Source of the DNA: Pseudaminobacter salicylatoxidans
GTDB lineage: Bacteria; Pseudomonadota; Alphaproteobacteria; Rhizobiales; Rhizobiaceae
Assembly: GCF_003148475.1 (NCBI RefSeq)
Contig: NZ_QGGG01000002.1
Location: 388,171 to 452,170, forward strand
Length of the DNA stretch: 64,000 bases
Direction of reading: 5' to 3'
Both the position numbers and the translations under genes were made by a program. Numbering within the stretch: the stretch's first letter is position 1; each line of letters starts with the position of its first letter. Below, piece after piece: positions 12,864 through 50,119 of this stretch. The notes below the pieces were generated by a model. It saw only the letters and a program-made list of their open reading frames with translations, was not told the origin of the DNA and did no database searches.

Positions 12864-12972
12864 CAGAGCATTTTACAGCCAGACGGAATCGCCTGGCGTC
12901 GCACAAATGCTGCTAAGAATACCGGGCTGGGACAACGGAATCGCGTTCGTCAGAACGCCCGCTGTTCTAGCC
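12864..12972 (+). repeat. dispersed intergenic repeat, copy A
   Basis: About 109 bases, starting AGAGCATTTT and ending TTCTAGCC. Hairpin 1 at 12878-12897 (GCCAG ... CTGGC around a GGAAT loop); hairpin 2 at 12943-12958 (GCGTTC, loop GTCA, GAACGC) inside a wider stem GGGCT / AGCCC. It shares layout and most of its bases with copies at 38301-38410 (inverted), 41778-41890 and, for the left half, 47636-47753. The stop codon of folK (TAG, minus strand 12967-12969) lies in its right end. Confidence 0.85.
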
Positions 12973-13482
12973 CTTCCACCAGTCGCGGCCGGACGGCAGG
13001 CGCTCTATTCCGGCCTTGTCGACGTGATCGACACGCTCCGATGCCCGCGTCCCGCCCAGCGAGAAATCAGGTGCGATCTCGAGGAGAGGCACCAGCACGA
13101 ATGCCCGCTCGAACATGCGCGGATGCGGGACTTCGAGCCCATGTTCATGGATTTCATGATCGCCGAAGGCCAGAATGTCGATGTCGATCAGACGCGGTCC
13201 CCAGCGTTCCTGCCGCACGCGCTTGAGACGCTGCTCGACGTCCAGGCACAGATCCAGCAATGCACGCGGCGAATGCGTGGTCTGGATTTCGGCCGCGACA
13301 TTGAGGAAATCGGGCTGGTCCAGCTTGCCCCAGGGCGGCGTGCGATGAAGCGAGGAGACCGCTATGACCTCCGTCCGCAGATCGGCATCGAGCATCCTCA
13401 GCGCCTCGCCCATCGCCTTTGCGGGCTCGCCGAGATTGCCGCCGAGGCTCAGATAAACGCGCTCTTTCTTCGAATTGGACAA
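12967..13482 (-). CDS. folK: 2-amino-4-hydroxy-6-hydroxymethyldihydropteridine diphosphokinase (HPPK)
   Basis: Transfers pyrophosphate from ATP to 6-hydroxymethyl-dihydropterin, the step before dihydropteroate synthase in folate synthesis. The frame is open upstream into folP, but TTG 13482 with GAGGTGG five bases before it gives 171 residues, normal for the family, and starts next to the first conserved strand (VYLSLGGNLG). Other hallmarks: SSLHRTPPWG, QPDFLN, and the metal/ATP motif RWGPRLIDIDIL. It is 37 bases downstream of folP. In many rhizobia folB (dihydroneopterin aldolase) lies between them; here there is no room for it. Its TAG stop is inside repeat copy A. Confidence 0.93.
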   Translation of the reverse strand: MSNSKKERVYLSLGGNLGEPAKAMGEALRMLDADLRTEVIAVSSLHRTPPWGKLDQPDFLNVAAEIQTTHSPRALLDLCLDVEQRLKRVRQERWGPRLIDIDILAFGDHEIHEHGLEVPHPRMFERAFVLVPLLEIAPDFSLGGTRASERVDHVDKAGIERLPSGRDWWKG

Positions 13483-38300: not shown

Positions 38301-38410
38301 CGGCTAGAGCAGAGGGCGTTCTGACGAACGCGCCTCCGCTGCTCCCGCTTTGTTTCCCTGGCCGCATTCGTGCAACGTCGGACGTTTCCGTCCGACCGCA
38401 AAATGCTCTA
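38301..38410 (-). repeat. dispersed intergenic repeat, copy B (inverted)
   Basis: The reverse complement begins TAGAGCATTTTGC and ends CTCTAGCCG, as in copies A and C. Hairpin 1 at 38377-38396 (GTCGGACG / CGTCCGAC, eight pairs); hairpin 2 at 38316-38331 (GCGTTC / GAACGC) within GAGCA / TGCTC. The TAG at 38408-38410 is also the stop codon of the GNAT gene. Confidence 0.87.
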
Positions 38411-38821
38411 TGCCGCCGGCGTGCGCGACAGGCGCATATACTGCCCGTCCATGCCGCGGACGAAGCCGAGCTTCTCATAGACGCCGTGCGCATCCGACGT
38501 GGAAAGACCCCAGTGCAGGATGCCGCCAAGCTCGGGATGCTCAATGAAGGCCTTGACCAGCCTACGCCCCAGCCCTTGCCCGCGATGCTCCGGCCAGACG
38601 ATGATGTCGCACAGATAGCCGAAATAGGTCCGGTCGGTAACGGCGCGCGCGAAGGCGACCTGTCGTCCGTCCAGATAGGCGGCGGCGCACAGCGAATTGT
38701 CGAAGGCCTGCTCGTGGCCCGCATCGGTGCGGTGCCTGCCCCAATAGGCCGCCTTCAGAATATCGGAAGTGGCGCGGAAATCGATCCGCGCGCGATCGAA
38801 GCTGATTTCATAATCCGCCAT
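38408..38821 (-). CDS. GNAT-family N-acetyltransferase
   Basis: 137 residues. The GCN5-related fold is recognised by the CoA pyrophosphate-binding loop GQGLGRRLV (about residues 82-90), preceded by the strand YLCDIIVWPEHR, and the C-terminal YEKLGFV. The length is that of a minimal single-domain GNAT. Substrate unknown. Its stop codon is the first triplet of repeat copy B, so the natural 3' end may have been altered by the repeat. The nadE gene lies 27 bases upstream on the same strand, so cotranscription is likely. Confidence 0.88.
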   Translation of the reverse strand: MADYEISFDRARIDFRATSDILKAAYWGRHRTDAGHEQAFDNSLCAAAYLDGRQVAFARAVTDRTYFGYLCDIIVWPEHRGQGLGRRLVKAFIEHPELGGILHWGLSTSDAHGVYEKLGFVRGMDGQYMRLSRTPAA

Positions 38822-41777: not shown

Positions 41778-41890
41778 TAGAGCATTTTGCAGCCGGACGG
41801 AATCGTCCGGCGTCGTACAAATGCGGCTAAGAAACCCTGCGGCTGGAGCAGCGGAAACGCGTTCGTCAGAACGCCTGCAGCCCCAGCCAG
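41778..41890 (+). repeat. dispersed intergenic repeat, copy C
   Basis: Begins TAGAGCATTTTGC; hairpin 1 at 41792-41811 (GCCGGACG / CGTCCGGC, loop GAAT), hairpin 2 at 41859-41874 (GCGTTC / GAACGC, loop GTCA) inside GGCTGG / CCAGCC. It fills almost the whole gap between dgkA and the DODA-type dioxygenase gene. Confidence 0.88.
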
Positions 41891-47635: not shown

Positions 47636-47753
47636 TTAGAGCAAGTTGCAGCCAACTGGAATCTCTTGGCGTCGCATACATGCGCAAAACCAGCCAGATA
47701 GACCATGATGCCATCCGGAAGCCGCTTCACGCTTCCCGGCATCATGATCTAGA
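47636..47753 (+). repeat. dispersed intergenic repeat, copy D (diverged) with a distinct right arm
   Basis: The left half keeps TTAGAGCA, hairpin 1 at 47651-47670 (GCCAA ... TTGGC around GGAAT) and GTCGCA. The right half differs from copies A-C: a long stem ATCATG-containing inverted repeat from about 47699 to 47752 (AGACCATGATGCC / GGCATCATGATCT) with an inner GGAAGC / GCTTCC. It may be a subfamily or two adjacent elements. Confidence 0.65.
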
Positions 47754-50044: not shown

Positions 50045-50119
50045 GGGCGATTAGCTCAGCGGGAGAGCACACCCTTCACACGGGTGGGGTCACTGGTTCA
50101 ATCCCAGTATCGCCCACCA
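50045..50119 (+). tRNA. tRNA-Val (anticodon CAC)
   Basis: 75 bases including an encoded CCA. Full cloverleaf by eye: acceptor GGGCGAT / ATCGCCC, D stem GCTC / GAGC, anticodon stem CACCC / GGGTG with loop TTCACAC (anticodon CAC at 50077-50079, reading GUG), variable GGGTC, T stem ACTGG / CCAGT with TTCAATC, discriminator A and CCA. Its own promoter lies just upstream. Confidence 0.97.

Follow-up and report, generated by a model that had tools for sequence, protein, structure and literature searches.

Which kind of element are the repeats of about 110 bp that lie scattered between the genes of Pseudaminobacter salicylatoxidans, how did they come to their present places, and what keeps their hairpins intact? 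The question is raised by a stretch of 64,000 nucleotides of this genome (the window, meaning the whole stretch of DNA analysed), in which an earlier note had recognized a family of dispersed repeats with covarying hairpins. The note had considered a REP/BIME-like element, a MITE-like element and a structured RNA 3' end.

The four copies and the family to which they belong

The earlier note had placed four copies between genes of the window, and a check of the window sequence recovers all of them in place (Table 1). The arms of the first stem (GCCAG/CTGGC, GTCGG/CCGAC, GCCGG/CCGGC and GCCAA/TTGGC) had been read correctly, and the second hairpin GCGTTC-GTCA-GAACGC is exact in three copies. The 13-mer TAGAGCATTTTGC, described as common to the four, is exact in two of them (at 38410 and 41778), whereas the other two read CAGAGCATTTTAC and TAGAGCAAGTTGC. 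The second hairpin of copy 4 differs from module 2a of the other three, and this copy is a member of a second subfamily. The minus-strand gene adjoining copy 1 has a TAG stop codon whose TA is the right terminal TA of the copy (12968-12969), and the left TA of copy 2 likewise belongs to the TAG stop of its neighbour; copy 3 is flanked by two minus-strand genes. In an Rfam scan of the window, tRNA alone reaches the gathering cut-off, through a tRNA gene at 50045-50116, and the remark that no described family could be named therefore remains fair.

Table 1 Positions of the repeat copies, their hairpins and the adjoining genes in the window
Feature	Position	Strand	Remark
Copy 1, subfamily I, TA to TA	12864-12969	+	left TA mutated to CA
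Copy 1, module 2a inner hairpin GCGTTC-GTCA-GAACGC	12943-12958	+	
Gene, stop codon overlapping right end of copy 1	12967-13482	-	codon-usage gene caller
Copy 2, subfamily I, TA to TA	38305-38410	-	
Copy 2, module 2a inner hairpin	38316-38331	-	
Gene, stop codon overlapping left end of copy 2	38408-38821	-	codon-usage gene caller
Copy 3, subfamily I	41778-41885	+	right TA mutated to CA
Copy 3, module 1 inner hairpin GCCGGACG-GAAT-CGTCCGGC, the covarying stem	41792-41811	+	
Copy 3, module 2a inner hairpin	41859-41874	+	
Copy 4, subfamily II, module 1 then module 2c, end TCTAG	47637-47751	+	covariance model E 3.1e-14

In the whole genome assembly (4.84 Mb, 43 contigs), of which the window is C2:388171-452170, a blastn search with copy 3 returns 24 copies (E<=0.01). 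With a covariance model of module 1 the number rises to 56 at E<=0.01 and to 61 at E<=1. Chance does not account for the repeats, which are real, and the collection of genomic copies with a covariance model, as the earlier note had advised, did not end with a few. Each copy is a mosaic of two hairpins bounded by TA-GAGCA...TGCTC-TA. Among the aligned copies module 1 is constant, reading roughly TAGAGCATTTTGC-AGCCAGACG-GAAT-CGTCTGGC-GTCGCACAAATGCGGCTAAGAAAACC, and is followed by alternative second modules, such as module 2a (GGCTGGAGCAGCGGAA-C-GCGTTC-GTCA-GAACGC-CCGCTGCTCTAG) and module 2b (GAGATGGAGCGG...CATCCGTCAGGATGACCGCCGCTC). Subfamily II has a stem of its own (GCCAAGTG/CACTTGGC) together with module 2c (GACCATGATGTCGTCCGAAAACCGCTTCACACTTTTCGGCATCATGGTCTAG). 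The usual copy starts with CTAGAGCA and finishes with TGCTCTAG or GGTCTAG, and the short, non-coding unit thus carries terminal inverted repeats (CTAGAGCA...TGCTCTAG), as MITEs do. Measured from TA to TA, the copies whose right end is clear (37) are 98-144 bp long, the longest possibly having a misplaced right end, with 106 bp (seven copies) and 115-116 bp (10 copies) as the commonest lengths.

Module 1 is matched at E<=0.01 in 19 of 61 genomes (P. salicylatoxidans and 60 relatives), comprising 4/4 in the genus, 13/33 others in the family and 2/24 elsewhere in the order. By the covariance model, three congeners have 32, 25 and 58 copies. A 32-base pattern gives 52 matches in 51 stretches of named genomes, including Mesorhizobium soli, M. 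composti, M. albiziae and M. sediminum as well as Pseudaminobacter, Aquamicrobium, Zhengella, Aliihoeflea, Aureimonas, Shinella and Sinorhizobium saheli. Module 1 matches are clustered in Aureimonas fodinaquatilis (L104, 2663-2838) and in Zhengella mangrovi (L063, 3406-3626). A copy from S. sojae matches 27 plasmid records, S. fredii NGR234 being among them at 94%. S. saheli holds at least 150 copies, and seven other genomes of its genus hold 0-3 (E<=1e-6). The mean likeness of module 1 is 88% in S. saheli (20 sequences, chiefly the best-scoring copies) and 73% in P. salicylatoxidans (21 better copies; 69% over 48), and the higher likeness in S. saheli suggests a more recent burst there. In S. 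saheli, a copy lies no more than about 120 bases from the start of several contigs (C42:37, C52:75, C54:37, C74:113, C92:65 and C93:56); assembly of this genome is probably interrupted by the repeats, and the true copy number may exceed 150.

Insertion sites, gene context and stop codons

Copies 2, 3 and 4 of the window were set against sister genomes. At the same place in these genomes, copy 2 is absent from G001 and G002 (G003 gave no alignment) and copy 3 from G001, G002 and G003, while in G001 and G002 the place of copy 4 holds a truncated remnant. The intergenic flanks of G001-G003 are too diverged for exact junctions, and sites on Sinorhizobium plasmids were therefore used. The first NGR234 site examined had no usable empty counterpart, and empty counterparts were found for four plasmid sites (A-D). 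Site A (pNGR234b 635065) reads CCC-TG-GTGCATTTT...CGCTC-TA-AAGG when filled, in NGR234, and CCC-TAGAGG (CCCTAGAGG) when empty, in S. terangae, S. meliloti 1021 pSymA and SM11 pSmeSM11c; on the minus strand, the TAG at this site can be read as a stop codon. In S. sojae pSJ05684b (L204), this place beside the TAG is taken by another sequence of similar size. Site B is filled as TCC-TA-GAGC...GCTC-TA-GAG and empty as TCCAAGG in two S. fredii strains. The TA target duplication is clear at sites A and B, whereas sites C and D, with changed junction bases and no clean TA at both junctions, are only compatible with it. In the P. salicylatoxidans genome, the base before an intact left TA is C in 12 cases, T in 10, G in four and A in four, and the base after an intact right TA is G in 11, T in five, A in two and C in one; the preference for CTAG in this genome is weak.

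The gene context was determined with a home-made codon-usage caller trained on 28 long reading frames of the window. For 58 of the 61 copies, the three weakest model matches (E 0.065-0.66) being omitted, 27 lie in convergent gaps, 26 in tandem gaps, one in a divergent gap and four at contig edges; with alternative copy ends the respective counts are 26, 26, one and five. The window itself has nine convergent, 24 tandem and 10 divergent gaps of together 1,557, 3,865 and 3,193 bp, respectively, divergent gaps making up 37% of the intergenic bases. Relative to this background, divergent gaps are depleted (p = 5e-10) and convergent gaps enriched (p = 1e-7) in copies.

A terminal TA of the repeat coincides with the TA of a neighbouring stop codon in 20 of the 58 copies, a count that leaves out copy 1 of the window, which also sits on a TAG stop. 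The stops at these 20 copies are TAG in 19 cases and TAA in one; the 46 window genes with a stop use TAG 10 times, TAA seven times and TGA 29 times. The same coincidence is seen in 17 of the 42 usable copies in the named loci, all of which belong to subfamily I by choice of the pattern and many of which come from the same few genomes (10 of the 52 matches were excluded for short flanks). Here, 18 sides fall at offset 0 and at most three at any other offset between -30 and +10. In S. saheli, six of 20 copies have a terminal TA within a stop codon, in all cases TAG. The share expected from the intergenic and stop-codon TAs of the window is 17/225 (7.6%), which gives p values of 4e-9 for the 20/58 set and 3e-9 for the 17/42 set.

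A stop codon at the edge of a repeat could be the product of a truncated gene or could have been in place before the element arrived, and orthologues discriminate between the two. For twelve of the 20 stop-codon genes, orthologues were sought in G001-G003; 11 of them gave 30 orthologous loci, and for the gene at C5:39829 no orthologue was found in these three genomes. Protein length is identical in 24 of the 30 loci and differs by -2, +9, +1, +1, +2 and +2 in the remaining six. The orthologues stop at that place with TAA, TAG or TGA, and by the covariance model module 1 is absent from 29 of the 30 loci and present in one (L228, G001). For the protein beside copy 2, both G001 and G002 stop at the identical codon, with TGA. 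The stop codons were entered by the element, not produced by truncation. In two further loci of the 30, L238 (G002) and L237 (G001), the same stop is directly followed by another palindromic element, TAGAGCATGATCCCGAAAAG... in G002 and TAAAGCATGATCCCAAAAAG... in G001. This different palindrome (TAGAGCATGATCCCGAAAAGTTGCAGACTTTTCGG... or TAAAGCATGATCCC...) lies in stop codons orthologous to those of the P. salicylatoxidans genes C21:233 and C16:66124. Different palindromes in the same stop codons imply that several element families share such sites.

Shared ends with IS630 elements and covariation of the stem

The earlier note had advised looking for a mobile partner, and insertion sequences of the IS630 family with the same ends as the repeats were found. 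Transposases of the IS630 type use TA as their target and duplicate it on insertion (PMC2170065), and a title in the reference list of that paper concerns preferential transposition of IS630 to the TA in 5'-CTAG-3' (PMC2170065). The P. salicylatoxidans genome has three matches to Pfam DDE_3 (PF13358) on two contigs. The IS630 on C34, split over several frames at the contig end, has one visible terminus, C-TA-GAGCGCATCCGG (IS end TAGAGCGCATCC), and the locus on C6 is without such an end; the ends common to the repeats and this genome's IS630 are short (TAGAGC). G003 carries an IS of 1,047 bp with matching TAGAGC ends (L277), and G001 has one with a single visible end (L275). These ends are lacking in the IS630-type loci L218, L274 and L276, and two genomes with repeats, G002 and G036, give no DDE_3 match.

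Among nine related IS loci on plasmids, collected through their mutual similarity, six read TAGAGCACGTCC or TAGAGCA(G/A)ATCC-like at both ends, with C before the left TA in 6/6 and G after the right TA in 5/6. One such end is visible in L252 and none in L251 and L255; in L250 the IS starts within the TAG stop of an annotated PLP-dependent aminotransferase gene. An internally deleted IS of S. saheli (L279, 897 bp) has the ends TAGAGCGGGATG. The right end of the S. saheli repeat, TAGAGCGGGATGCGCTC, is identical to that of L279 at 12/12 positions counting TA, and the match of its six bases beyond TAGAGC (6/6) is reached by 6,650 of 200,000 shuffles. The left end has AGGTGGAATC in common with L279 at the same offset, and beyond TAGAGC 14 of 21 bases agree, which 40 of 200,000 shuffles reach (best of four end pairings); genomic TAGAGC sites are no clean control for this left end, with element copies among them. 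Relatives of L279 covering at least 80% of the IS are present in 113 plasmid records, and of the best 15 of these 113, 13 bear the annotation IS630 family transposase. Three of the ISs with these ends contain Pfam DDE_3 and HTH domains. The ends TAGAGCA or TAGAGCGGGATG are thus common to the repeats and an autonomous type of IS, IS630. The IS630 copies examined in P. salicylatoxidans and in S. saheli are broken, and present-day mobility in the former genome is unsupported. The MITE-like option of the earlier note is supported by the short matching ends, the TA duplicated at two sites, the empty counterparts and the IS630 elements whose ends agree with those of the repeats.

The other claim of the note was that paired changes on both arms of the first stem point to a maintained structure. 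In 24 copies from the P. salicylatoxidans genome, 16 cells of module 1 are changed on both sides, compared to 7.2 in shuffles (0/500 reaching this number), but six pairs are changed in this way, compared to 4.5 in shuffles (reached by 118/500); covariation on these 24 copies is moderate. Among 14 full-length copies, no covariation measure is significant. Over 103 distinct sequences, drawn from this genome, the named loci and Sinorhizobium with an input selection of 99 loci, 154 cells are changed on both sides compared to 57.5 +/- 9.8 in shuffles. The alignment was fitted to the covariance model, and since the copies are related, the shuffle number is not to be read as a probability. In the same set, 14 of 20 pairs are changed on both sides (9.4 in shuffles) and the score is 0.253 (0.154 in shuffles), with slid structures scoring 0.03-0.09. 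Covariation of the module 1 stem over the 103 sequences is strong.

Covariation by itself is no proof of a functional RNA. Over 17 inner pairs, in an alignment that favours G-U, there are 60 G-U cells and 41 A-C cells (p = 0.07); as these numbers are not clearly unequal, the data do not say that the RNA strand is selected, and upkeep of the palindrome in the DNA would account for the covariation just as well. Maintenance of the structure stands as an observation, and either account may explain it. A TTTT lies within 12 nt of the right end in 3/37 copies and of the left end in 2/37, and the hairpin followed by a T run that marks an intrinsic terminator is not the pattern among these 37 copies. 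The palindromes may aid the transposase, may reflect upkeep of DNA symmetry or may have a role in mRNA 3' ends.

Origin of the repeats and related systems

Taken together, the repeats are very likely MITEs of the Rhizobiales, non-autonomous elements moved in trans by transposases of the IS630 family (Tc1/mariner type). We infer this movement, what causes the covariation and any influence on mRNA, and the IS630 transposases described above are the probable movers of these repeats. Such a transposase would excise the unit of two palindromes and insert it at a TA, preferably within a CTAG- or YTAR-like context, and the TA would be duplicated on insertion, yielding the ends TA-GAGCA...TGCTC-TA. 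Because the first element base after TA is G on either strand, an element entering an in-frame TAG or TAA stop at its TA would rebuild TAG and leave the protein unchanged. Selection would purge insertions in genes and promoters, and those in stop codons and 3' intergenic regions would be harmless and hence persist there, leaving divergent (promoter) gaps depleted. As two of the 14 CTAG occurrences in the window are inside genes other than at stops, a transposase preferring CTAG would meet mostly harmless sites. The stop-codon bias may stem from targeting or from selection, and either fits. A bolder version, in which rhizobial IS630 elements and their hairpin MITEs are stop-codon specialists with a structure kept for transposition or for host mRNA, is tentative and has somewhat less than an even chance of being right. 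In this version, a CTAG/YTAR-like target together with a G-first end would let them enter stop codons and rebuild TAG, hairpins would have been carried into 3' UTRs throughout the genome without damage to proteins, and neighbouring stops would have shifted to TAG.

If the MITE reading is true, placement at gene ends would have a simple reason, namely that the element rebuilds the stop codon it enters, and the intergenic palindromes of rhizobia would gain a concrete candidate mover in IS630. Predictions of sRNAs and terminators in these genomes can then be transposon debris. Insertion in stop codons and covarying mosaic hairpins are the distinctive traits of the family, and the titles and abstract openings of the literature matches listed name neither this repeat family nor stop-codon targeting by IS630 in Rhizobiales.

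Several other explanations share part of this evidence. If the hairpins were kept as structured RNA in mRNA 3' ends, where they would stop transcription or block exonucleases, the strong covariation and the location of copies at gene 3' ends would be expected, and one study has found transcriptional activity in S. meliloti for 26 REP elements as well as for other repeats (PMC2873474). However, G-U does not clearly exceed A-C, as would be expected if a single strand were transcribed, T runs near the ends are rare, and different second hairpins and subfamilies replace one another; the structured RNA 3' end proposed in the earlier note is therefore unlikely as an origin, although the inserted hairpins may have acquired a secondary use. 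REP/BIME elements spread by a RAYT transposase, another option of that note, are likewise extragenic, palindromic, mosaic and found downstream of genes, but REPs are GTAG-tagged units of 20-40 bp (PMC3733652), whereas the repeats described here are units of about 105-115 bp with TAGAGC ends that were inserted whole at TA. The RAYT search proposed in the note gave no match to Pfam Y1_Tnp at E<=0.001 in the P. salicylatoxidans genome, with control matches in 5 of 14 genomes, and this origin is scarcely credible. The MITEs could also owe their movement to a transposase of the IS5 family rather than to IS630, with IS711, an IS5-type element, as the model. IS711 also targets YTAR and duplicates TA (PMC2266754), and the flanks in the P. 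salicylatoxidans genome look YTAR-like. Nevertheless, a survey of ends that covered IS630-type elements led directly to IS630 elements ending like the repeats, and an IS711-like mover is decidedly improbable.

Membership in an already described family, RIME or Bru-RS, would be compatible with the MITE reading, and we regard it as possible but rather doubtful. RIME, reportedly described by Osteras et al. in 1995 as Rhizobium-specific intergenic mosaic elements, are said to be about 108 bp long with two palindromes, which would make them alike in size, mosaic build and intergenic location. At least two of 13 genomes in the genus of S. saheli, a minimum since the strongest fold per locus was taken, have a two-palindrome element immediately upstream of a chvG-like gene; it is located near 4241 in L196 and near 4461 in L200, with the chvG-like gene on the plus strand. 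From its position in the presumed chvI-chvG region, this element is presumably RIME1. Module 1 has no convincing match in the 13 chvG-like loci (best E 0.049), and the element in L196 and L200 differs in sequence, so that RIME1, if that element is RIME1, was rejected as the identity of the repeats. Bru-RS1 and Bru-RS2 of Brucella are palindromic repeats of 103-106 bp (PMC10800456), again of similar size, and Bru-RS elements are preferred sites of IS711 (PMC2266754). A type II copy (L040) aligns with the Rfam families RF02600 BASRCI27 (31.3 of 59.8 bits, E 0.0011) and RF02599 BASRCI408 (29.6 of 398 bits, E 1.5e-4), in both cases below the gathering score, and L044 does so more weakly. A review tables BASRCI27 and BASRCI408 as confirmed Brucella sRNAs and gives reporter repression by BASRCI408 (PMC9751625). 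Comparing by description, we infer a link of Bru-RS to these two sRNAs; related repeats may already be annotated in Brucella under another name, and it is possible that BASRCI27 and BASRCI408 contain a repeat of this superfamily.

The closest kind of known element are the IS630-linked repeats, such as RUP of the pneumococcus. A precedent for stop codons supplied by a repeat is already in print for BOX of the same organism: 58 annotated genes overlap BOX, and in 36 of the 58 the stop is encoded by BOX at the extreme 3' end, truncation in these overlaps being without strong evidence (PMC3049150). BOX elements are composite repeats as well, but have another sequence, and their ends were compared with those of ISSpn2 (PMC3049150). 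RUP of Streptococcus pneumoniae is 107 bp long with ends similar to those of IS630-Spn1, and thus resembles the present repeats in size, in carrying no gene and in having ends in common with an IS630-family IS (PMC3049150). Unlike RUP, the repeats described here belong to the Rhizobiales and consist of two palindromic modules in mosaic arrangement, the first of which covaries, and their insertion into stop codons is shown against orthologues.
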